Assembly (NCBI RefSeq): GCF_018861125.1
Contig: NZ_JAHKQN010000013.1
Location: forward strand, 159,160 to 223,159
Direction of reading: 5' to 3'
From: Cellulophaga baltica
Lineage (GTDB): Bacteria; Bacteroidota; Bacteroidia; Flavobacteriales; Flavobacteriaceae
Length of the DNA: 64,000 bases
Shown here: positions 27,080 through 38,662 of the stretch, piece after piece
How positions within the stretch are numbered: position 1 is the first letter of the stretch
Layout of the letters: every line of letters begins with the position of its first letter
Notes under the pieces: generated by a model
Database searches by the model: none
What the model saw: the letters and a program-made list of their open reading frames with translations, nothing else
What the model was told of the DNA's origin: nothing
Program-made: the position numbers and the translations under genes

Positions 27080-27108
27080 TTGAAAAGTCAATTTAATTTG
27101 TACATTTG
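27080..27108 (+). promoter_or_regulatory. Promoter of the arginine/proline operon
   Basis: TTG at 27080-27082, 18-base spacer, TACATTTG at 27101-27108 (TAnnTTTG consensus). Expected transcription start is around 27112-27115, only a few bases before the leader-peptide ATG at 27117. Confidence 0.85.
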
Positions 27109-27116
27109 ACTCGATA

Positions 27117-27203
27117 ATGAATAAAAACGCACACATATTAGTTTCTACAGACAGGGCAATAGCTCCTGTGCGTTCATTTACACCTACACGCCGTCGCCCG
27201 TAA
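27117..27203 (+). CDS. Arginine-rich leader peptide (28 residues)
   Basis: ATG at 27117, stop TAA at 27201-27203. The peptide ends FTPTRRRP: three consecutive Arg codons (CGC CGT CGC) then Pro just before the stop, with two more Arg at positions 13 and 19, five Arg in 28. It starts within a few bases of the predicted transcription start and directly precedes an arginine biosynthesis operon. That is the layout of an attenuator leader: a ribosome stalling at the Arg run when charged tRNA-Arg is short would alter downstream RNA folding. Too short for standard gene callers. Confidence 0.78.
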   Translation: MNKNAHILVSTDRAIAPVRSFTPTRRRP

Positions 27204-27296
27204 GGGTGTGATATATTATGGAAATAGGTGAGTCCATTTCCGCAGAAAGACAAAACAATATTTCAATTAATTTTTTACTCTTAATCCTAATTGGCA
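27126..27296 (+). promoter_or_regulatory. Candidate attenuator RNA of the arg/pro operon
   Basis: Possible pairings: AACGCACA (27126-27133) with TGTGCGTT (27167-27174), 8 bp, both inside the leader ORF; CACC at 27181-27184 with GGTG in the 27204-27209 segment, or CGCCC with GGGTG around a GTAA loop; CACCTA (27181-27186) with TAGGTG (27225-27230); and GGAAAT (27220-27225) with ATTTCC (27236-27241). Several exclude each other, as expected of a switch. A run of six T at 27271-27276 lies upstream of the GNAT start. No classical GC hairpin joined to a T tract is visible, so control could be at translation or by Rho. Confidence 0.55.
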
Positions 27297-27935
27297 ATGG
27301 AAATACAAATTGCTAACGAGTCACATTTTAAATACGCTGAAGCTATTTGCGATACAATAGCGGAATCTGCCAAAGTCAGAGGAACAGGAATCGCAAAAAG
27401 AACTCCGGAATATATTTGTAAAAGGCTAGGTAATGGTAATGCTATTATTGCATTAGACAACGGTAAGTTTGCAGGTTTTTGTTATATAGAAGTCTGGGGG
27501 CATGAGAAATTTGTTGCCAATTCTGGCCTTATCGTTCACCCTGATTACAGGTCACAAGGACTTGCTAAAAAAATAAAAGAAAAAACTTTTGAGCTATCAA
27601 AGGAAAAATTTCCTGATGCTAAAATTTTTGGAATCACTACTGGTTTAGCAGTAATGAAAATTAATTACGAATTAGGCTACAAACCAACAACATTCTCAGA
27701 ACTTACGGATGATCCTGAATTCTGGAAAGGTTGTCAAACTTGTAAAAACTTTGACATTCTTACACGTACAGAACGAAAAATGTGTTTGTGCACCGGCATG
27801 TTGTATGACCCTGCAACTGACAATAAAAAGAAAGCAGAAAACGAAGTAACTAAGGGCCATGAAAAAGCAAACCCTAAAGCTTTCAAAAAATTAAAAAGTA
27901 TAAAAGAATCCCTTTTCATAAAAAAGAAAGAATAA
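27297..27935 (+). CDS. GNAT-family N-acyltransferase, probable first arginine-pathway enzyme
   Basis: About 212 residues from the ATG at 27297; a TTG two codons earlier is possible but less likely. GNAT fold with acyl-CoA loop HPDYRSQGLAKKIKEKT, plus a C-terminal Cys motif GCQTCKNF and MCLCTGM that looks like a zinc-binding CxxC/CxC pair. First structural gene of the arginine operon and abutting argG. Bacteroidota lack a classical argA; this acetyl- or succinyltransferase is the probable glutamate N-acylating enzyme. Acyl group by inference succinyl, given the Ser90 type of carbamoyltransferase in the same operon. Confidence 0.85.
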   Translation: MEIQIANESHFKYAEAICDTIAESAKVRGTGIAKRTPEYICKRLGNGNAIIALDNGKFAGFCYIEVWGHEKFVANSGLIVHPDYRSQGLAKKIKEKTFELSKEKFPDAKIFGITTGLAVMKINYELGYKPTTFSELTDDPEFWKGCQTCKNFDILTRTERKMCLCTGMLYDPATDNKKKAENEVTKGHEKANPKAFKKLKSIKESLFIKKKE

Positions 27936-29125
27936 TGAAAAAATTAGTATTAGCCTATAGCGGTGGTTTGGACACATCATACTGTGCAAAACATTTATCA
28001 AAAGATGAAGGATTTGAAGTTCATGCTGTAAGTGTAAACACAGGTGGTTTTTCAAAAGAAGAAATCAGTGAAATAGAAAAAAAAGCTATTGAATTAGGTG
28101 CAACATCATATAAATCAATTGATGCTGTTCAAACTTTTTACGATAAAGTAGTTAAGTTTTTAATTTTCGGGAACGTGCTTAAAAACAATACTTACCCACT
28201 TTCAGTAAGTGCTGAGCGTATTGTACAGGCTATTGAAATTGTAAACTACGCTAAAAAAGTGGGGGCTTCACATATTGCTCATGGTAGTACTGGTGCTGGT
28301 AACGATCAGGTTCGTTTTGATATGATTTTTCAAATTATAGCTCCTGAAATAGAAATCATTACACCAATAAGAGATAATAAACTTTCAAGAGAGGCTGAGA
28401 TTGCTTATTTACAAGAGAATGGCATTGATTACCCTTGGGAAAAAGCAAAATACTCAATCAACAGAGGGCTTTGGGGGACATCAGTTGGTGGTGAAGAAAC
28501 ATTGACATCTCAAAATGCTTTACCAGATAGTGCATACCCAAGTCAATTACAAGATAAAGAACCTAGTGATGTAAAACTAACTTTCGAAAAAGGTGAGTTA
28601 ATTGCAGTTAATGGCACTAAAGATAATCCTGTTGCAAATATTGAAAAATTAGAAACTATGGCTTCTAAATATGCAATTGGCAGAGATATTCATGTTGGTG
28701 ATACTATTATAGGTACAAAAGGTAGAGTTGGTTTTGAAGCAGCTGCCGCTTTAATTATCATAAAAGCACACCATTTATTAGAGAAACATACACTAACTAA
28801 ATGGCAACAATACCAAAAAGAGCAACAAGGTAATTTTTACGGAATGTTATTACATGAAGGCAATTATTTAGATGCTGTAATGAGAAATATTGAAACTTTC
28901 TTGACAGATACACAAAAGACTGTTTCTGGAGATGTTTTCTTAAGCTTATACCCTTTCCAATTTAGATTAAACGGAATTTCATCTGAACATGATTTAATGA
29001 CGGATGCTTTTGGAAGTTACGGTGAAGTTAATAAGGGTTGGTCTGCAACTGATGCTAAAGGCTTTATTAAAATGCTCTCAAACTCAGGTAGAATATACAA
29101 CTACGTAAACAATAGTAATGAATAG
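27935..29125 (+). CDS. argG: Argininosuccinate synthase
   Basis: Joins citrulline and aspartate with ATP to form argininosuccinate. 396 residues, full length. ATP-pyrophosphatase motif AYSGGLDTSYCAKHL at the N-terminus, AHGSTGAGNDQVRFD (citrulline/Asp binding) in the middle, and IGTKGRVGFEAAAALIIIKAH. Overlaps the GNAT stop by one base and the following unknown gene by eight. Confidence 0.97.
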   Translation: MKKLVLAYSGGLDTSYCAKHLSKDEGFEVHAVSVNTGGFSKEEISEIEKKAIELGATSYKSIDAVQTFYDKVVKFLIFGNVLKNNTYPLSVSAERIVQAIEIVNYAKKVGASHIAHGSTGAGNDQVRFDMIFQIIAPEIEIITPIRDNKLSREAEIAYLQENGIDYPWEKAKYSINRGLWGTSVGGEETLTSQNALPDSAYPSQLQDKEPSDVKLTFEKGELIAVNGTKDNPVANIEKLETMASKYAIGRDIHVGDTIIGTKGRVGFEAAAALIIIKAHHLLEKHTLTKWQQYQKEQQGNFYGMLLHEGNYLDAVMRNIETFLTDTQKTVSGDVFLSLYPFQFRLNGISSEHDLMTDAFGSYGEVNKGWSATDAKGFIKMLSNSGRIYNYVNNSNE

Positions 29126-29531
29126 TATTTTAAAATTACTTGAAACAAGAGATCTTTATATCCATCTGATATTGTTTAAAATCTATCTTCAAACAAGTGG
29201 AAGAACAAAAATTCCAATAAATGAAAGTGATTTAAAAAATGAGATTAAAGAAATATTTGATGGTGATTATAGCTATCAAGACTATCTAACAGCTACTCAA
29301 TATTTAATTTCAGAAAATTTGGTAGAGAATTCATTTATGGGGCTAACAGTTAAAGGTAGAGCATATTTTGAAAATTGGATAAAAGAATTTGAAAACTTAA
29401 GTAAAGAGGATCAACAAAAATTAAACGAAAATTTATCTCCAAAAATTTCAAAATTTTTTGAACTAACTGATAATATAGTTAAAGTAGGAACATTTGTTAC
29501 GAAATTAATCGAATTAAGTAATAATATATGA
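29118..29531 (+). CDS. Unknown 137-residue protein inserted in the arginine operon
   Basis: No recognised family. N-terminal helix-rich part (SILKLLETRDLYIHLILFKI) followed by LTATQYLISENLVENSFMGLTVKGRAYFENW, split here at ENLV, which resembles a winged-helix wing as in small effector or antitoxin-like proteins; the C-terminal third is helical with a mildly hydrophobic end. It overlaps argG by eight bases and argC by four, so it is translated as part of the operon. It is not a normal arginine gene. Possibly regulatory or an accessory insertion. Confidence 0.65.
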   Translation: MNSILKLLETRDLYIHLILFKIYLQTSGRTKIPINESDLKNEIKEIFDGDYSYQDYLTATQYLISENLVENSFMGLTVKGRAYFENWIKEFENLSKEDQQKLNENLSPKISKFFELTDNIVKVGTFVTKLIELSNNI

Positions 29532-30502
29532 TTAAAGCTGGAATAATAGGTGGTTCTGGATATACTGGAGGTGAACTTATCAGAATACTTTTAAACCACC
29601 CAGAAGTAACTATAGATTTTGTGTACAGTACCACAAGAGCTGGAAAAAAAATTACAACAGCACACCCTGATTTATTAGGGGTTACTGATATTGCTTTTAC
29701 AGGTGATGTAAACTTAAATGTAGATGTTGTTTTCTTATGCTTAGGTCACGGAAATTCAACAACATTTTTAAATGCAAATGATTTTTCTGCTAACACAAAA
29801 ATCATTGATTTGAGTAATGATTTTAGGTTAGATGCTGATGCTATTTTAAATGGCAAAAAATTTGTTTACGGTTTACCCGAAACAAATAAGCCTGCAATTA
29901 AAAAAGCAAATTATATTGCTAATCCTGGTTGTTTTGCGACAGCTATTCAACTTGGTTTATTACCATTAGCAAAAGCAGGACTTTTAAATAACGAAATTCA
30001 TATAAATGCTGTGACAGGTAGTACTGGTGCAGGCGTTAGTCCATCAGCTACTTCACATTTTAGTTGGAGAAATAACAATGTATCGTGGTATAAACCTTTT
30101 ACTCACCAACATTTAGGCGAAATAGGTGAAAGTTTAGCTTCTTATAACAATGAAGTAGGAGAATTATTTTTCTTACCTAACAGAGGGAATTTTACAAGAG
30201 GAATTTTAGCTACAGCTTATACTAAGTTTGAAGGTAGTATAGAAGATGCAATAGCTCTCTATAAAGATTTTTATAAAGATGCTTTGTTTACACATATTTC
30301 AGAACAAGAAATAAATTTAAAGCAAGTAGTAAATACTAATCACTGTCATATTCATTTACATAAGTTTAATGATCGTCTTCTAATTACTTCAGCTATAGAT
30401 AATTTATTAAAAGGAGCATCTGGTCAGGCAGTACAAAACATGAATTTAATGTTTGGTTTTGAGGAAAATATAGGACTGAATTTAAAAGCAGGAGTTTTTT
30501 AG
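29528..30502 (+). CDS. argC: N-acyl-gamma-glutamyl-phosphate reductase
   Basis: 324 residues. NADPH motif AGIIGGSGYTGGELIRIL, active-site Cys in ANPGCFATAIQLGLLPL, and His in the C-terminal half (HQHLGEIGESL). Reduces the acyl-glutamyl phosphate made by ArgB to the semialdehyde. Followed by the only sizeable gap (70 bases) inside this operon. Confidence 0.96.
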   Translation: MIKAGIIGGSGYTGGELIRILLNHPEVTIDFVYSTTRAGKKITTAHPDLLGVTDIAFTGDVNLNVDVVFLCLGHGNSTTFLNANDFSANTKIIDLSNDFRLDADAILNGKKFVYGLPETNKPAIKKANYIANPGCFATAIQLGLLPLAKAGLLNNEIHINAVTGSTGAGVSPSATSHFSWRNNNVSWYKPFTHQHLGEIGESLASYNNEVGELFFLPNRGNFTRGILATAYTKFEGSIEDAIALYKDFYKDALFTHISEQEINLKQVVNTNHCHIHLHKFNDRLLITSAIDNLLKGASGQAVQNMNLMFGFEENIGLNLKAGVF

Positions 30503-30572
30503 CATCGATTTCACTCAGCGAACAAATATTGATTGAGCGTAATCTAAATTAAAAAGCAGTAAAATTAAAAAA

Positions 30573-31373
30573 ATGAAAGTAGCCATAATAGGAGCAGGAA
30601 ATTTAGGATTAGCTATCGCCAAAGGAATATTAAATTCTAATGGTGCTACTAGTATGTATTTAACGAAACGAAATACAGAAGAAATTTCTAAATATGAAAA
30701 ATACGGAAACGTAACTGTTACTTCTGATAATAGAGAAGCAGTTGAAAAGTCTGATATTTTAATATTTGCTGTTCAACCAGCACAATTTGAGCAAATTCTT
30801 ACTGATGTAAAAGATTTGTTAAATGAAAAACACGTGGTAATTTCAACCATTACAGGTGTGGTTATTTCTCAAATTGAAGCAATTATTGGTACTGATCATA
30901 ACATCATCCGTAGTATGCCAAATACAGCAATATCTGTAGGTAAATCTATGACTTGCATTTGTAGTAATGAACAAGGTAAAAAACGAATTGAGCTTGCTAA
31001 AGCTATTTTCAACCGGATGGGCCATTCTATGGAAATTCCTGAAAGTCAGATGCAAGCAGCTACAGTAATTTGTGCTAGTGGTGTTGCCTTTTGGATGCGA
31101 TTAATACGCGCTACAACTCAAGGTGCTATTCAACTTGGTTTTGATGCTAAAGAAGCTCAAGAATTAGCAATGCACACTTGCGATGGTGCTGCAAACTTGT
31201 TAATAGAATCTGGCAATCATCCGGAGGCAGAAATTGATAGAGTTACGACTCCAAAAGGGTGTACAATACAGGGTTTAAACGAAATGGAACATCAAGGTTT
31301 AAGTTCGTCATTAATACAAGGTATTGTAGCATCTTATGAAAAAATAAGTGAAATAAAAAAAGGGGAATTATGA
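30573..31373 (+). CDS. proC: Pyrroline-5-carboxylate reductase
   Basis: 266 residues. Rossmann motif VAIIGAGNLGLAIAKGIL, IIRSMPNTAISVGKSMTC, and the family's C-terminal TPKGCTIQGLNEMEHQGL substrate loop. Last step of proline synthesis, NADPH plus P5C to proline. Proline genes embedded here put proline synthesis under the arginine promoter. Overlaps argD by four bases. Confidence 0.94.
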   Translation: MKVAIIGAGNLGLAIAKGILNSNGATSMYLTKRNTEEISKYEKYGNVTVTSDNREAVEKSDILIFAVQPAQFEQILTDVKDLLNEKHVVISTITGVVISQIEAIIGTDHNIIRSMPNTAISVGKSMTCICSNEQGKKRIELAKAIFNRMGHSMEIPESQMQAATVICASGVAFWMRLIRATTQGAIQLGFDAKEAQELAMHTCDGAANLLIESGNHPEAEIDRVTTPKGCTIQGLNEMEHQGLSSSLIQGIVASYEKISEIKKGEL

Positions 31374-32497
31374 AACTATTTGATGTTTATCCACTTTATG
31401 ATGTAACACCTGTAAGTGCAAAAGGAATAGTTGTTACAGATGACAAAGGACAAGAATATTTAGATTTTTATGGTGGACATGCTGTAATTTCAATCGGGCA
31501 TTCTCACCCACACTATGTAAAAAGATTAGAAGATCAATTACACAAAATAGGTTTTTATAGCAATGCTGTACAAAACCCATTACAGGTTGAGCTTTCTACA
31601 AAATTAGGTACATTATCAAATTGCAATAATTACAATTTGTTTTTATGTAGTTCTGGTGCTGAGGCAAATGAAAATGCGCTAAAATTAGCTTCATTTGAAA
31701 CAGGAAAATCTAGAGTATTAGCATTTAATAATGGTTTTCACGGTAGAACGTCTGCAGCAGTAGCTGCTACTGATAACCAAAAGATAAATGCGCCAATTAA
31801 TAAGCAACAAAAGGTTACTTTTTTAGCTTTTAATGATCTAGCTTCATTCACTACTGAAATTGAAAAAGGTGATGTTTGTGCAGTAATTTTAGAAGCAATA
31901 CAAGGTGTTGGTGGTTTAGATGAGCCTTCAACTGATTTTTATCAAAGCGTTGCAAAACTTTGTAAAGCTAACAATGTAAAACTTATTGCTGACGAAGTAC
32001 AGTGTGGTTTTGGTAGAAGTGGAAAATTTTTCGGTTTTCAACATCACAACATACAACCTGACATTGTAAGTATCGCTAAAGGTATGGGGAATGGTTTTCC
32101 TGTAGGTGGTGTACTTATTCATGAAAGTATTGAAGCTAAATACGGAATGTTAGGTACAACTTTTGGTGGTAATCATTTAGCATGTGCTGCATCAATGGCA
32201 GTTTTAGAGGTTATTGAAAAAGATAATTTGATTGAAAATGCCGCTACATTAGGTGAGTATTTCAAAACTTGTGCCACAGAAATTCCTGAAGTTAAAAAAG
32301 TAAAAGGTAGAGGTCTAATGCTTGGTTTAGAATTTGATTTTGAAGTAGCTGCCTTACGCAAAAAACTTATTCATACTCAACACATGTTTACAGGTGGTGC
32401 AATGAACAAAAACTTATTGAGAATTTTACCTGCTTTAAATATTACAAAACAAGATATAGATACATTTTTCAACGCACTTAAAGAGGAACTAAAGTGA
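31370..32497 (+). CDS. argD: N-acylornithine aminotransferase
   Basis: 375-residue class III PLP aminotransferase. Glycine motif FLCSSGAEANENALKLA, DEVQCGFGRSGKFF (PLP-binding Asp), PLP lysine in DIVSIAKGMGNGFPVGG, and TFGGNHLACAA. Converts acyl-glutamate semialdehyde to acyl-ornithine. Ends in a GTGA overlap with proA. Confidence 0.95.
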   Translation: MKLFDVYPLYDVTPVSAKGIVVTDDKGQEYLDFYGGHAVISIGHSHPHYVKRLEDQLHKIGFYSNAVQNPLQVELSTKLGTLSNCNNYNLFLCSSGAEANENALKLASFETGKSRVLAFNNGFHGRTSAAVAATDNQKINAPINKQQKVTFLAFNDLASFTTEIEKGDVCAVILEAIQGVGGLDEPSTDFYQSVAKLCKANNVKLIADEVQCGFGRSGKFFGFQHHNIQPDIVSIAKGMGNGFPVGGVLIHESIEAKYGMLGTTFGGNHLACAASMAVLEVIEKDNLIENAATLGEYFKTCATEIPEVKKVKGRGLMLGLEFDFEVAALRKKLIHTQHMFTGGAMNKNLLRILPALNITKQDIDTFFNALKEELK

Positions 32498-33693
32498 GCT
32501 TAATATTAAACATAGAACAACGTAATAAGGTTTTAAATACTATGGCTGCCTTAGTAGCATCAAAAAAATCAACCATTTTAGCCGCTAATAAAATAGATTT
32601 AGAAGCGTATTCTGGTGATGATTTAGCCATGGCCGATCGATTAAAAGTTGATGATGATAAAATTAAAGGAATGATTTTATCATTACAGCAACTAGCTAGT
32701 CAAACAGATCCTTTAGGTGTTGAACGTTTTGCTTTTGAACATGACAACGGTATTAAAGTAAGTAATAAAACAGCACCATTTGGCACCGTTTGTATCATTT
32801 ATGAATCTAGACCTGATGTTACAATTGAAGCAGCAGGAATTGCATTTAAATCTGGAAATAAAATATTATTAAAGGGTGGTAAAGAATCACTAAATAGTAA
32901 TTTAGCTTTGGTTGATTTATGGCATAAAGCTTTAGAAGAAAATGACTGTAATACTGACTGGGTTACTTATTTACAATTTAACCGAGAACAAACACAAGCA
33001 TTTTTAGAAAATCCTACTCAAAAGATGGATTTAATTGTTCCTCGTGGAGGTGAAAAACTAATTTCTTTTGTAAAAAAACACGCTAATTGCCCAGTAATAA
33101 TTAGTGGTCGTGGTAATAATTTTGCATACGTTTCTTCAGAAGCAGATTTACAAATGGCTATTGATATCATTATCAATGCTAAAACAACAAAAATATCTGC
33201 ATGTAATGCTTTAGATAAAGTTTTAATTGCTGCCGATATGCCTCGTAAGCATGAGTTTTTACAACACTTAATCAACGAACTTAAAAAGAGTGATGTTGAA
33301 ATTTTAACAGATACTATATTTTCAGAAATTGAAGGTGTTAAAGAAATTGAAAACGACGATGTTTGGTATAAAGAGTTTTTAGATTATAAAATAGTAATTG
33401 GTCAAGTAGCCAATGTTGAAGATGCTATTGAAAAAATAAACACCTATGGTGGCGGACATTCGGCTGTTATCATTACTTCAAATACTGAAAAAGCAGAAAC
33501 ATTTTTACAATCTGTTGATGCTGCAGCAGTATATCATAATGCATCAACACGTTTTACTGATGGGTTTCAATTTGGTCTGGGTGGCGAATTAGCAATTAGT
33601 ACTGATAAATTACACCAAAGAGGCCCTATTGGATTGCAACACTTGGTTACCAATAAATGGTATGTATTAGGTGAAGGGCAAATAAGACCATAA
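32494..33693 (+). CDS. proA: Glutamate-5-semialdehyde dehydrogenase (gamma-glutamyl phosphate reductase)
   Basis: 399 residues starting at GTG, which overlaps the argD stop. IIYESRPDVTIEAAGIAFKSGN is the characteristic cofactor segment, LIVPRGGEKLISFVKK is conserved, and the catalytic Cys is in ISACNALDKVL. Second step of proline synthesis; C-terminus FGLGGELAISTDKLHQRGPIG is typical (split here: the motif ends after DKLH). Confidence 0.95.
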   Translation: MSLILNIEQRNKVLNTMAALVASKKSTILAANKIDLEAYSGDDLAMADRLKVDDDKIKGMILSLQQLASQTDPLGVERFAFEHDNGIKVSNKTAPFGTVCIIYESRPDVTIEAAGIAFKSGNKILLKGGKESLNSNLALVDLWHKALEENDCNTDWVTYLQFNREQTQAFLENPTQKMDLIVPRGGEKLISFVKKHANCPVIISGRGNNFAYVSSEADLQMAIDIIINAKTTKISACNALDKVLIAADMPRKHEFLQHLINELKKSDVEILTDTIFSEIEGVKEIENDDVWYKEFLDYKIVIGQVANVEDAIEKINTYGGGHSAVIITSNTEKAETFLQSVDAAAVYHNASTRFTDGFQFGLGGELAISTDKLHQRGPIGLQHLVTNKWYVLGEGQIRP

Positions 33694-33717
33694 ATGTTTT
33701 AAAACACGAAATTGAAA

Positions 33718-34479
33718 ATGAAAAAGAAACGCATCTTATTAAAAGTAGGTTCCAATACCTTAACAAAAGAAACGAATCATATTTCTCGTGGAAAAATAGA
33801 AGATATTGGTCGCCAAATAGAAAGTCTTAAAGATGAGTATGAATTTATCATCGTTAGTTCTGGTGCAATAGCAGCGGCAAAGCAATTTGTTAAATTAGAA
33901 CATAATGGTGAAGATATTAACATAAAACAGGCTTTAGCCTCAATAGGACAACCTCACTTGATGCGTATTTTTCAAGAAAATTTTAGAGAACTTGGTTTAT
34001 TTACATCACAATGTTTGTTATCCTATTCAGATTTTGAGAACCAAAAAGCTAAATCAAATATTAAAAACACCATTGATGTTCTGGTTGCAAATAATTTTAT
34101 TCCTATTATAAATGAGAACGATACTGTTGCTACGGACGAAATTAAATTTGGTGACAATGATAAATTAGCCGCACTTACGGCTTCTTTATTAAAAGTAGAT
34201 TTGCTGATAATTGCTACTAATACTGATGGTGTTTACACTAAAAAATCATTTGAAGTTGATATGCCTGAAACTATTGAAGAAGTAATTAACTTAAACGAAT
34301 TACTAAATGAGGTTGGCAACAGTAAATCAACACATGGAACAGGTGGTATGCAATCTAAGGTTGAAGCCGCAACAATTGCACATGCATCTAATATAGAAAC
34401 TTGGATTGTAAACGGATTAAGAGAAAATTTTATTACTGATGCTATAAACGGTAAAAGTAACTTTACAAAAATAAGATAG
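33718..34479 (+). CDS. proB: Glutamate 5-kinase without PUA domain
   Basis: About 253 residues, amino-acid-kinase fold only; many bacterial ProB are about 370 residues with a C-terminal PUA domain, absent here. Motifs: LLKVGSNTLTKE, IVSSGAIAAAK, NENDTVATDEIKFGDND, and HGTGGMQSKVEAA. First step of proline synthesis. The frame is open to a TTG at 33712, but the ATG at 33718 fits the conserved N-terminus and is preferred. Confidence 0.94.
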   Translation: MKKKRILLKVGSNTLTKETNHISRGKIEDIGRQIESLKDEYEFIIVSSGAIAAAKQFVKLEHNGEDINIKQALASIGQPHLMRIFQENFRELGLFTSQCLLSYSDFENQKAKSNIKNTIDVLVANNFIPIINENDTVATDEIKFGDNDKLAALTASLLKVDLLIIATNTDGVYTKKSFEVDMPETIEEVINLNELLNEVGNSKSTHGTGGMQSKVEAATIAHASNIETWIVNGLRENFITDAINGKSNFTKIR

Positions 34480-34516
34480 TAAAACAACTAGTTGCTTTAC
34501 TAGAAACAAATTACAA

Positions 34517-35458
34517 ATGAAACATTACACAAGCATACAAGATATAGATTCACTACCAAAATGGGTAGCTGATGCAAAAGAGTTAAAGGCAAATTCTAAA
34601 GCTTTTAAAAACTTAGGAGAGAACAAAACTATCTGTTTATTATTTTTTAACAACAGTCTTAGAACACGCTTAAGCACTCAAAAAGCAGCAATGAATTTAG
34701 GTCTTGAAGTTATGGTAATGAACTTTGGCAGTGAAGGTTGGGCTTTAGAATATGGAGACGGAACAGTTATGGATCAAGGTACTTCTGAGCACATTAAAGA
34801 AGCCGCTCAAGTGGTTTCTCAATTCTGTGATATAGTTGCTATTAGAGCTTTTGCTTCATTAACAGACAAAGAAAAAGACGAAGCAGAAGTTGTTTTAAAT
34901 GGTTTTAAAAAGCACACAACAATTCCTGTAGTAAATATGGAAAGTTCTGTTGGCCACCCATTACAAGCTTTAGCTGATGCAATTACTATTGCTGAAAATA
35001 ATACGAAAGACAAGCCGAAAATTGTACTTTCTTGGGCTCCACACCCAAAAGCATTACCACACGCTGTAGCCAATTCATTTACTGAAATGATGTTAAAGCA
35101 AAATGCAGATTTTATAATTACACACCCTGAAGGGTATGAGCTAGACCCTAACATTACAAAAGATGCTATGATTGAGCATGATCAAGAAAAAGCTTTAGAG
35201 AATGCTGATTTTGTTTACGTAAAAAACTGGAGTAATTATAAAAATTACGGTCAAGTACTGAACAATGACAAAAACTGGATGATGACTAAAGAAAAATTAG
35301 GCGCTGCTAAATTTATGCATTGTTTACCTGTTAGAAGAAACGTTGTGGTTGAAGATGCTGTTTTAGACAGCAATCAAAGTATTGTTATTGAACAAGCCAA
35401 CAACAGAACATATGCAGCACAAATCGTATTAAAAAAAATATTAGAAAATCTGTCTTAA
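34517..35458 (+). CDS. argF': N-succinylornithine/N-acetylornithine carbamoyltransferase
   Basis: 313 residues. Carbamoyl-phosphate motif SLRTRLSTQKAAMNLG in place of the ornithine carbamoyltransferase STRT form, WALEYGDGTVMDQGTSEHIKE, HPLQALADA, and HCLPVRRNVVVED. The HCLP-V-RR ending marks the acyl-ornithine branch. Residue 90, Pro in the B. fragilis succinylornithine enzyme and Glu in Xanthomonas acetylornithine enzymes, is Ser here, which favours N-succinylornithine. Product is acyl-citrulline, so ArgE must act after this step. Confidence 0.9.
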   Translation: MKHYTSIQDIDSLPKWVADAKELKANSKAFKNLGENKTICLLFFNNSLRTRLSTQKAAMNLGLEVMVMNFGSEGWALEYGDGTVMDQGTSEHIKEAAQVVSQFCDIVAIRAFASLTDKEKDEAEVVLNGFKKHTTIPVVNMESSVGHPLQALADAITIAENNTKDKPKIVLSWAPHPKALPHAVANSFTEMMLKQNADFIITHPEGYELDPNITKDAMIEHDQEKALENADFVYVKNWSNYKNYGQVLNNDKNWMMTKEKLGAAKFMHCLPVRRNVVVEDAVLDSNQSIVIEQANNRTYAAQIVLKKILENLS

Positions 35459-35485
35459 ACAAAAAGGCAGATTAAAATAATTCTT

Positions 35486-36268
35486 ATGGATAAGAAAAAA
35501 TTATCAGTAGTTAAAATTGGCGGCAATGTAATTGAAAACACTACTGAATTAGATAAATTCTTAACGCTATTTTCCAAAATTGAAGGTCCTAAAATATTAG
35601 TGCATGGTGGCGGAAAATTAGCTACACAATTAGCAAGTAAATTAGGCATTGCATCTAAATTAGTAAATGGCCGCCGTATTACTGATGCTGATAGTATTGA
35701 CATAATCACAATGGTTTACGGTGGGTTAACCAACAAGAAGATTGTAGGTAAATTACAAGCCAATAATTGTAACGCTATAGGTTTAAGTGGAGCAGATGGC
35801 GATGCTATTCAAGCTCACAAAAGACCTGTAAAAAATATCGATTATGGTTTTGTAGGTGATATTGATGGTGTAAACACCAATTTAATAACTACGTTATTAA
35901 ATGCAGACTTAACACCTGTTTTTTGTGCACTTTCACATGATGGTAACGGACAAATTTTAAATACCAATGCCGATACAATAGCTTCAGAAATAGCTATAGG
36001 CATGAGTAAAAATTTTGACACCACCTTATATTATTGCTTTGAAAAAAAAGGTGTTTTATTAGATATTAAAAATGAAGAATCTGTAGTAAAACATATCAAT
36101 TCAAATAAATACCAAGAATTACTAGATCAAAAAATTATTGCAGATGGTATGCTTCCTAAATTAGAGAATTGCTATCATGCTTTACATCATAAAGTAACTA
36201 AAGTTTGTTTAGGTGATATCGAAATGATAAAAACTGATGCTACTTTATTTACAACAATTACAATATAA
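35486..36268 (+). CDS. argB: N-acylglutamate kinase
   Basis: 260-residue amino-acid-kinase-fold enzyme. VVKIGGNVIEN at the N-terminus, ILVHGGGKLATQLASKLG (substrate Gly-loop), GLSGADGDAIQAHK, and ILNTNADTIASEIA. Phosphorylates N-acyl-glutamate for ArgC. Starts 27 bases after argF'. Confidence 0.93.
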   Translation: MDKKKLSVVKIGGNVIENTTELDKFLTLFSKIEGPKILVHGGGKLATQLASKLGIASKLVNGRRITDADSIDIITMVYGGLTNKKIVGKLQANNCNAIGLSGADGDAIQAHKRPVKNIDYGFVGDIDGVNTNLITTLLNADLTPVFCALSHDGNGQILNTNADTIASEIAIGMSKNFDTTLYYCFEKKGVLLDIKNEESVVKHINSNKYQELLDQKIIADGMLPKLENCYHALHHKVTKVCLGDIEMIKTDATLFTTITI

Positions 36269-36270
36269 TT

Positions 36271-37341
36271 ATGAATCAAAAACAACTTACAGAAAAAGCT
36301 ATTGCGCTATTAAAACAGTTGATTAGTATTCAATCATTCTCAAAAGAAGAGGATAAAACTGCTGAAGCAATTCAAGATTGGTTCAACTTTTTTGAAATTC
36401 CGTTTACGAGAGATAATAATAATGTGTATGCTAAAAACAAGCATTGGGATGATACAAAACCAACGCTTTTGTTAAACTCTCACCACGATACAGTAAAACC
36501 TAATCAAGCATACACAAAAGATCCTTTTTTACCTCATATTGAAGATGGTAAATTATACGGTTTAGGAAGTAATGATGCAGGTGGCTGTTTGGTTTCATTG
36601 CTCGCGACCTTTTCTTATTTTTATATCGCAGAAGATTTAAACCACAACATATTAATGGTTGCTTCCGCAGAAGAAGAAAATGCAGGAGTTAATAGTTTAA
36701 GAGGTTTGCTTCCTTCATTACCACATATTGATGTTGCTATTGTTGGTGAACCTACACTAATGAATTTAGCTATTGCAGAAAAAGGTTTGGTGGTATTTGA
36801 TGCTGTTGTAAAAGGGACTCCTTCACATGCAGCTCATCCAAATAACGACAATTCAATTTACAATACAATAGAAGTACTTGATTGGTTTAAAAATTATAAA
36901 TTTGAGAAGTCATCCGAAGCTTTAGGCGATGTAAAACTTACGGTAACGCAAATAAATGCAGGAACACAACATAATGTAGTTCCTTCACAAGTAGATTTAG
37001 TCATTGATGTTCGTGTTAATGACAGCTACTCTAATTTAGAAATAGCCAATTTGCTAAAAGCTAAAGCGCCTTGTGAAATTAAAGAACGCGGATTAAAACT
37101 TAATTCATCAAAAATTGATAAAGATCATCCGTTAGTACAATCAGGCATAGCACTAGGAAGAGAAACTTACGGCTCTCCTACCCTGTCTGATCAAGCAGCA
37201 CTTACGTGTCAGTCTTTAAAATTAGGACCTGGTGATAGTACAAGATCGCATTCTGCTGATGAGTTTATTTACGTAAACGAAATTGAAGAGGGTATCGATT
37301 TATACATTAAAATATTAAACGGATTTATTAAACAGAATTAA
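36271..37341 (+). CDS. argE: M20-family deacylase, N-acyl-citrulline/ornithine hydrolase
   Basis: 356 residues. Zinc ligands and catalytic residues of M20 enzymes: LNSHHDTVKP, GLGSNDAGGCLVSLLA, ASAEEENAG (general base Glu pair), VGEPT, and C-terminal RSHSADEF. Releases citrulline from acyl-citrulline in this branch of the pathway, by inference from the carbamoyltransferase type. 2-base gap to argB. Confidence 0.92.
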   Translation: MNQKQLTEKAIALLKQLISIQSFSKEEDKTAEAIQDWFNFFEIPFTRDNNNVYAKNKHWDDTKPTLLLNSHHDTVKPNQAYTKDPFLPHIEDGKLYGLGSNDAGGCLVSLLATFSYFYIAEDLNHNILMVASAEEENAGVNSLRGLLPSLPHIDVAIVGEPTLMNLAIAEKGLVVFDAVVKGTPSHAAHPNNDNSIYNTIEVLDWFKNYKFEKSSEALGDVKLTVTQINAGTQHNVVPSQVDLVIDVRVNDSYSNLEIANLLKAKAPCEIKERGLKLNSSKIDKDHPLVQSGIALGRETYGSPTLSDQAALTCQSLKLGPGDSTRSHSADEFIYVNEIEEGIDLYIKILNGFIKQN

Positions 37342-37381
37342 GTACTAAATACTTAATACAAACTACTTAATAATTAGGATT

Positions 37382-38662
37382 ATGAAACTTTGGGATAAAG
37401 GATTTAGTACTGATAAAAAAATAGACCATTTTACGGTTGGTAACGATAGAGAATTAGATTTACAATTAGCTAAATATGACGTAATAGCATCAAAAGCACA
37501 TGCTAAAATGTTAGGTGAAATTGGCTTATTAACTGCAGAAGAAACTGAAAACTTAGTAAAAGAGCTTGATAATATTGGTGCTACTATAGAAAATGGAACT
37601 TTTACTATTGAAGATTCATTTGAGGATATGCACTCTAAAATTGAGTTTCTTTTAATTGAAAAACTAGGAGATACTGGTAAAAAAATACACACTGCACGTT
37701 CAAGAAACGATCAAGTTTTGGTTGCCATGCATTTGTATTTAAAAAATGAATTGACTGAAATCAAATCAGAAACTAAAGTTCTTTTTGATCTTTTATTAAA
37801 CCTTGCTGATAAATATAAATCGGTTTTAATACCTGGTTATACACATTTACAAATTGCAATGCCATCATCATTTGGTTTGTGGTTTTCTGCATATGCAGAG
37901 AGTTTAATTGATGATCTATATTTTATTGATGCTGCCTACAAAGTTGCTGATCAAAACCCATTAGGTAGTGCTGCTGGTTACGGAAGCTCTTTTCCTATTG
38001 ACCGTATTTTCACCACTAAAGAAATGGGGTTTGCTAGTTTAAAATATAATGTTGTTGCCGCTCAAATGGGCCGTGGTAAAGTTGAAAAAGCTACTGCTTT
38101 TGGTATCAGTAGCGTTGCCGCTACCCTATCAAAAATGGGAATGGATATTTGTTTGTATATGAGTCAGAATTTTAATTTCATCTCTTTCCCTGATGAATTA
38201 ACAACTGGTTCTAGTATTATGCCACACAAGAAAAACCCTGATGTTTTTGAACTTATTAGAGGTAAATGTAACCGTTTGCAAGCAGTACCTACACAGTTAA
38301 CTATGATTTTGAATAATTTACCAAGTGGATACCACAGAGACTTACAATTGGTGAAAGAAGTGATAGTACCTGCCATACAAGATTTGAGAGCTTGTATTGA
38401 GATTTTGACTTTTAGCTTAAAAGAAGTCAGAGTTAATGAAAACATCCTTGGGGATACTAAATATGATTATTTATTTAGTGTTGATACATTAAACGAATTG
38501 GTACTTAGCGGTATTCCGTTTAGAGATGCATACAAGAAAATGGGTAAAGAAATTAACGAAGGTACATTTTCACCAAAAAGAGATATTAAACACACACACG
38601 AAGGTAGTTTGGGTAACTTATGCTTAAATGATATTCGCGAGAAAATGAAAAAAATATTTTAA
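37382..38662 (+). CDS. argH: Argininosuccinate lyase
   Basis: 426 residues. N-terminal MKLWDKGFSTDKKIDHFTVG, HTARSRNDQV (substrate), GYTHLQIAMPSSFG, and the fumarase-superfamily signature GSSIMPHKKNPDVFELIRG with catalytic Ser in the loop. Cleaves argininosuccinate to arginine and fumarate, the final step. Confidence 0.97.
   Translation: MKLWDKGFSTDKKIDHFTVGNDRELDLQLAKYDVIASKAHAKMLGEIGLLTAEETENLVKELDNIGATIENGTFTIEDSFEDMHSKIEFLLIEKLGDTGKKIHTARSRNDQVLVAMHLYLKNELTEIKSETKVLFDLLLNLADKYKSVLIPGYTHLQIAMPSSFGLWFSAYAESLIDDLYFIDAAYKVADQNPLGSAAGYGSSFPIDRIFTTKEMGFASLKYNVVAAQMGRGKVEKATAFGISSVAATLSKMGMDICLYMSQNFNFISFPDELTTGSSIMPHKKNPDVFELIRGKCNRLQAVPTQLTMILNNLPSGYHRDLQLVKEVIVPAIQDLRACIEILTFSLKEVRVNENILGDTKYDYLFSVDTLNELVLSGIPFRDAYKKMGKEINEGTFSPKRDIKHTHEGSLGNLCLNDIREKMKKIF

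Follow-up and report, generated by a model that had tools for sequence, protein, structure and literature searches.

A near-leaderless arginine leader and an uncatalogued two-hairpin RNA element form a candidate arginine-responsive module before the arg/pro operon of Flavobacteriaceae

The arginine and proline biosynthesis operon of Cellulophaga baltica is preceded by a short ORF that begins almost at the predicted 5′ end of its transcript, ends in a run of Arg codons, and runs into a two-hairpin RNA element conserved in many Flavobacteriaceae. Judging from sequence comparisons, this region probably acts in cis as a regulatory leader and senses arginine supply via translation. Sensing through translation of the Arg codons appears well supported by the anatomy of the leader; the output step is a guess, because no intrinsic terminator follows the ORF. 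Coordinates refer to the window, a 64,000-nucleotide stretch of contig NZ_JAHKQN010000013.1, and the features named below lie on its forward strand.

The putative leader ORF (MNKNAHILVSTDRAIAPVRSFTPTRRRP, then the stop) occupies 27117–27203, with its ATG at 27117 and a TAA stop at 27201–27203. Direct translation of the window gives 28 codons and 28 amino acids, five of them Arg, and the frame closes with the Arg run CGC CGT CGC (27189–27197), followed by Pro CCG and the stop (27198–27203). A TTG resembling a −33 element (27080–27082) lies 18 nt 5′ of a −7 box, TACATTTG (27101–27108). The spacing from the TAnnTTTG box to the transcription start is 4–5 nt in many F. johnsoniae promoters, according to PMC6847099, and on this spacing the predicted start falls at 27113–27114, 3–4 nt 5′ of the ATG; relatives conserve the distance between box and ATG, so a start far from 27117 is unlikely. 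An earlier note on this DNA had described a 28-codon ORF with five Arg ending Arg-Arg-Arg-Pro-stop, the same Arg codons, the promoter TTG-N18-TACATTTG, and an arginine biosynthesis operon 3′ of the ORF, and all of this agrees with the sequence, its translation and the arg/pro genes downstream. When every ATG on both strands is counted, the window contains 680 ORFs of 12–45 codons, five of which encode RRR; nine ORFs closely follow a TAnnTTTG box, and RRR occurs in one of these nine. A chance origin of the leader ORF is untenable because of its conservation among relatives.

The downstream operon (27297–38662) consists of GNAT, argG, orf137, argC, proC, argD, proA, proB, an N-acetylornithine carbamoyltransferase-like gene, argB, argE, and argH, the first being a GNAT-family acetyltransferase gene (27297–27935; Pfam PF00583 and PF13508). 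The products of argG, argC, proC, argB, and argH score above curated NCBIfam cut-offs; argD, argE, and the carbamoyltransferase are named from best NCBIfam matches with scores below the cut-offs, and proA and proB from sequence and position. Neither Pfam (E 0.001) nor NCBIfam (E 1e-20) gave a match to the 137-aa ORF that lies between argG and argC (29118–29531). The ArgR repressor likewise governs arginine genes, and the earlier observation that the window lacks argR extends to the entire genome: a search with PF01316 (ArgR) returned no match in C. baltica, where an ArgR regulon would need one, and the same search was positive in 9 of 14 control genomes. PF01316 was found in 109 of the 292 genomes of a phylum sample, and among the matches listed the lone one in Flavobacteriaceae was weak (G214, 26.9 bits).

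The earlier note had made its reading depend on conservation of the ORF and its Arg run in relatives, and both were found widely in Flavobacteriaceae. A covariance model of the RNA element, R1, matched 174 of 299 genomes of the family, 173 of them once and G126 twice. Every match in an order sample (20/296 genomes) and in a phylum sample (11/296 genomes) belonged to Flavobacteriaceae. These counts are lower bounds, because G214 was missed with strict filters and recovered with lax ones. The second match in G126 (L200, 27 bits) is probably due to chance; no operon protein matched on that locus and its core is unrecognisable. GNAT or argG is present on the stretch in 135 of the 136 loci fetched by R1 alone; in 133 of 136 the core lies no more than 160 nt 5′ of one of these genes; neither gene is visible on the short stretch of L126.

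The GNAT protein had a match in 37 of 60 relatives' genomes, and GGUG[A/U]GUCC stands 5′ of the GNAT gene in 29 of the 30 fetched loci, being absent from L030. Throughout the window's genus and its neighbours (L001–L020), the ORF has 26–28 codons and ends RRRP in 20/20. Loci from named genomes, which include Cellulophaga, Arenibacter, Maribacter, Zobellia, Muricauda/Flagellimonas, Pricia, and Kriegella, have the downstream core in 80/80; 66 of these 80 passed a strict script that requires an Arg-Pro end on a near-leaderless ORF, and the same ORF was seen by eye behind a TACTTTAG or TACATTAG box in the remaining 14. The nearest named record among those returned, from which the window's own genome was perhaps excluded, is an uncultured Cellulophaga whose GNAT protein is 93% identical. 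When 28 mostly R1-negative genomes were probed with the GNAT protein, 13 gave no match. A missing GNAT gene does not mean a missing operon, because G007, without a GNAT match, still has the element 5′ of argG. In L060 and L196, which keep the element, the approximately 800 nt separating it from argG contain nothing that matches the window's GNAT protein.

All nine genomes probed in genus g147 had a GNAT match, and none had the element even with lax filters. The g147 loci L079–L085 have another conserved ORF, MNKISLHITSLSRTNSPITSPEVRTLSL or a close form, just 3′ of the −7 box and with two CGG codons, as well as a second long frame that ends near the start of the GNAT gene; P1 and P2 are absent there. 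Short Arg-containing ORFs also precede the GNAT gene in L030, L094, L096, L097, L098, and L099, from other families of the order. By eye, some of these show a P1-like hairpin over the Arg codons, and in L094 and L096 a T-rich stretch comes after a hairpin in which a pair has changed in a compensating way, an arrangement that looks terminator-like.

Comparison of 157 distinct loci revealed two leader types. A strict test for a near-leaderless Arg ORF was passed by 118 of them, 69 of type I and 49 of type II; 2/157 were loose, and 37/157 failed or were unassigned. Type I leaders have a single near-leaderless ORF that runs into hairpin P1 and starts 12–18 nt from the first base of the −7 box (15–16 nt in 54/69). 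Type II leaders have an additional, earlier near-leaderless Arg ORF (ORF1) starting 11–14 nt from that base (12 nt in 38/49), hence with scarcely any untranslated leader, and carrying 2–8 Arg codons, as in MIIMKNKIRPSSPARMLRRRCAF of L023; a second Arg-rich frame then enters P1, its start often TTG by eye. Directly 5′ of P2, a pattern search in any frame found 2–5 tandem Arg codons and then Pro in 144/157 loci, with a stop directly after Arg-Pro in 136 of the 144. The tandem runs are written almost entirely in CGC or CGT (389/393 codons, vs 43/128 Arg codons in 14 CDSs of the window). About a dozen loci have no in-frame stop in the P1 loop (their frames read RRPLG or similar). Where similar type I ORFs differ, they do so most often at third codon positions (481, vs 292 and 297 at the other two, over 64 non-independent pairs). 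Nonsynonymous codon changes exceed synonymous ones (530 vs 210), and the peptide itself is therefore weakly constrained. As would be expected of a leader, the peptide is loosely constrained except at its ends.

The earlier reading had overlooked an RNA element that overlaps the leader ORF and extends 3′ of it. In hairpin P1, CGCCC-GTAA-GGGTG (27195–27208), the 5′ strand includes the final Arg codon and the loop includes the stop. P1 is followed, after 11 nt, by hairpin P2, GGAAAT-A-GG-TGAGT-CC-ATTTCC (27220–27241), which has a covarying stem and a core, UA-GG-UGNGU-CC (27225–27235), near-invariant over the 157 loci. In its general form, P2 has a stem of 6 bp, next to it a bulge that is mostly A or UA, and then GG-UGNGU-CC. 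Among 17 sequences, chosen from the 29 elements then known as aligning without a bulge shift, 95.9% of cells pair and four pairs are changed on both sides, values matched by 0/500 shuffles. Moreover, the 81 distinct outer-arm pairs found among the 157 loci have 5.79 of 6 positions paired in their native combinations; 10,000 arm swaps averaged 4.83 and never exceeded 5.16. One core pair changes from G-C to A-U in 4/157 loci. P2 thus has the conserved structured core that is looked for in a riboswitch; a riboswitch would also bind a metabolite directly. P1 is invariant across the 42 type I rows of alignment A3, and stem variants (GCGCAC/GUGCGC, CGCAC/GUGCG, and CGCCC/GGGCG) occur in distant loci; covariation of P1 is a weak point, because its support comes from these few distant loci. 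The fold of the window's leader as a whole is barely better than that of shuffles (z −0.78).

The element has no counterpart in Rfam 15. With 4227 families at gathering scores, only a tRNA elsewhere in the window matched; 301 bases around the element gave no match up to E 10, and eight loci of the element gave none at gathering scores. Three other roles for its parts were considered and set aside. A Shine-Dalgarno function of AGGUGA in P2 is ruled out by GAUGNGUUC in L074, L077, L103, and L191, where both sides of the pair are changed. Pairing of CGCC, from the P1 5′ strand or from the Arg codons of ORF1, with GGUG of the P2 core is not favoured, because loci with the CGCAC/GUGCG and GCGCAC/GUGCGC forms of P1 retain GGUGAGUCC; for ORF1 the conclusion is less firm. 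P1 together with the U-rich linker qualifies as a terminator in just 9/157 loci.

Two further pairings lie within the leader. Pairing P0 would join AACGCACA (27126–27133) to its exact complement TGTGCGTT (27167–27174), whose strand shares 3 nt with the 3′ arm of Pa, a hairpin within the ORF (ACAGGG-CAATAGC-TCCTGT, 27151–27169); Pa-like hairpins were seen by eye at the equivalent position in relatives. In type II loci, P0 pairs the first 34 nt of ORF1 with a U-rich segment 10–75 nt 3′ of the ORF1 stop. Under an earlier type assignment in which several type I loci were mislabelled, and with 21 of 54 loci kept after dereplication, native type II partners had a mean energy of −12.2 kcal/mol (−8.3 when swapped), and 0/20,000 permutations were as good, a result repeated with 31 loci kept; a control segment further 3′ gave no signal (17,826/20,000). 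The type I test, made under the same assignment and with shared ancestry incompletely removed, gave weaker, moderate evidence: −8.3 native vs −7.0 swapped, with 6/20,000 permutations (35/53 loci kept).

RNAalifold found Pa, and found it covarying, in type II only; there it recovered Pa and P1, left out P0, and paired the Arg codons of ORF1 with the P2 core in place of P2. On the type I alignment it recovered neither P0 nor Pa. A column-pair scan of 50 type I leaders, noisy in that its remaining entries came mostly from invariant columns, gave prominent P2 pairs and hints of P0 at the single column pairs 12-62 and 12-68 (L001 positions); no conserved switch with P1 or P2, of the kind that an attenuator's mutually exclusive terminator and antiterminator would form, was prominent.

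The earlier note had read the layout as ribosome-mediated attenuation. One part of that reading is supported, namely a conserved near-leaderless leader with Arg codons before an arg operon; the classical layout is incomplete, however, for want of an intrinsic terminator, and the Arg block is under constraint as RNA too, through P1. Nothing terminator-like was found 3′ of the ORF in the window, where the lone match of a loose scan was Pa inside the ORF. Across the family, terminator-like sites between P1 and the gene (9/157 loci) are about as rare as in stretches shuffled by mononucleotide, with base counts alone kept (27/785). The arg leader, putatively translated, thus has the attenuator's short ORF of cognate codons just 5′ of the operon and lacks a terminator between that ORF and the first gene. 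The comparison with other leaders of the same genome covered the hisG and trpE operons. Before hisG (positions 1193–1306 of locus L193), a near-leaderless HHHH leader, MRNQTTHHHHFYTCFQAR, lies behind TACTTTTA and is followed by a 12-pair terminator-like hairpin; before trpE (positions 1324–1434 of locus L194), a near-leaderless WWW leader, MKNLTTNTWWWKNLRQ, lies behind TATCTTTG and is followed by an 11-pair one. By their layout, the two look like classical His and Trp attenuators, respectively. Neither matched Rfam at gathering scores.

The arg leader is reminiscent of trp/his-type ribosome-mediated attenuators in its near-leaderless short ORF and its cognate-codon run directly before a biosynthetic operon. 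It differs from them in having no intrinsic terminator after the ORF, in carrying its Arg codons inside the conserved P1, and in adding the conserved P2 and, in part of the family, a second Arg leader. Bacteroid-trp (RF01692) is linked to Trp leader peptides. It is a predicted cis-regulatory RNA of Bacteroidetes that by its name precedes trp genes (PMC2864571), and it differs in that no Rfam family matched the arg element in the window or in eight loci. In rbfL of S. aureus, as the accessible text of PMC13009471 describes it, Arg codons of a leader peptide likewise sense arginine limitation; there, however, two Arg codons are used, one of them the rare AGG, and the ribosome, once paused, occludes the binding site of a biofilm regulator gene. 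That system does not precede a biosynthetic operon, and the same text describes no such conserved RNA.

The earlier note regarded arginine attenuation as little described in this phylum. The general idea of attenuation here is not new, because PMC9723704 already suggests that leader peptides attenuate amino-acid operons in Flavobacterium psychrophilum. Short leaders are uncommon in this bacterial group: leaderless mRNAs make up 5.5% in F. psychrophilum (PMC9723704), and predicted F. johnsoniae transcripts have leaders of at most 10 nt in 13% and longer ones in 87% (PMC6847099). Some long 5′ UTRs of B. thetaiotaomicron contain leader-like ORFs (PMC7366714), and a survey of 26 bacterial genomes includes a uORF motif of another kind with a conserved Arg-Leu-Arg (PMC8632094). 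No description of the arg element was found in the open-licence literature; an earlier notice of a Flavobacterium arg leader may exist.

Based on these findings, we propose a plausible mechanism for the arg leader. Since the leader begins at the very 5′ end, the first ribosome could load as soon as the RNA emerges. When charged Arg-tRNA is short, the ribosome would stall on the CGN codons and cover P1, and the operon would stay on. When arginine is plentiful, the ribosome would reach the stop in the P1 loop and leave; P1 and P2 would then fold, P0 would shut the 5′ end against reloading, and expression of the operon would drop. Release at the RRP stop is weakened as an essential step, because in about a dozen loci the frame stays open past the P1 loop. 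In type II relatives, the first Arg leader and the P0 helix may form a second gate ahead of this module, gating the second leader. The final step would proceed without a canonical intrinsic terminator, its likeliest route being either Rho or some factor or ligand by which P2 is recognised. Sensing by translation is favoured by the nearly single-copy spread through the family, the Arg-Pro-stop ends, the CGN bias, the covariation of P2 and of type II P0, the lack of PF01316, and the near-leaderless his and trp leaders of the same genome. Against it stand the missing terminator, the invariance of P1, the pairings missed by RNAalifold, the z of −0.78, the 37/157 failures, the weak constraint on the peptide, and genus g147, which has GNAT without the element.

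Several other explanations have to be weighed. With Rho-dependent attenuation, translation of the leader would shield a G-poor untranslated stretch, and after release Rho would stop transcription before the first gene. The lack of an intrinsic terminator and the very low G content 3′ of P2 (1–6% at +30 to +52 from the core) fit this output, whereas G-poor 5′ UTRs may be usual in these genomes, no rut consensus is available for scoring, and the P2 core is left unexplained; we hold it to be possible, at rather less than even chances. Somewhat less likely is that P2, with P1, is the true sensor, as a riboswitch or a protein-binding hairpin for arginine or a regulator, and that the ORF merely times or gates it. 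A core that stays near-invariant while its stem covaries, the element of L060 and L196 retained without a GNAT match ahead of argG, and the great variation in the remainder of the leader peptide are consistent with this, but P2 is very small for a metabolite aptamer and has no Rfam match, and tandem Arg codons precede it in 144/157 loci, near-leaderless Arg ORFs in 118/157. Purely translational control, in which the structure would make the first gene's start, 52–110 nt 3′ of the P2 core, more or less accessible, has a precedent in rbfL, which senses arginine that way according to PMC13009471; we consider it improbable, as P2 is too distant from the gene start to cover it and, in the scan of 50 type I leaders, the 60 best column pairs include isolated columns near that start and no run of neighbouring pairs. 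A chance ORF over a conserved non-coding RNA, its Arg codons a by-product of the CGCC-rich P1 strand, is very hard to credit: although CGCCC forces one in-frame Arg codon, the type II Arg codons sit in a separate ORF1 far from P1, L021, L109, and L189 retain Arg codons despite a different P1 stem, gaps in the ORF alignment are mostly multiples of three (by eye), and the distance from −7 box to start is nearly fixed.

Going beyond the preferred reading, a cis-regulatory leader that senses arginine through translation, we tentatively entertain two sensors in series: a ribosome that reads charged Arg-tRNA on the codons of P1 and, at the P2 core, either arginine or a factor acting in trans. In a large part of the family, at least 49 of the 157 loci, a further near-leaderless Arg leader is added, and its P0 helix would gate translation of the second leader. 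If true, such a relay of two leaders, with an output other than a terminator, would represent a new design of attenuator. How Flavobacteriaceae control arginine synthesis without ArgR found no answer in the literature examined. The leader offers a concrete, nearly single-copy, family-wide candidate control element with defined parts, in an attenuator format that would suit bacteria without Shine-Dalgarno sites, and P2 may serve as a defined bait for a new RNA-binding factor or ligand.
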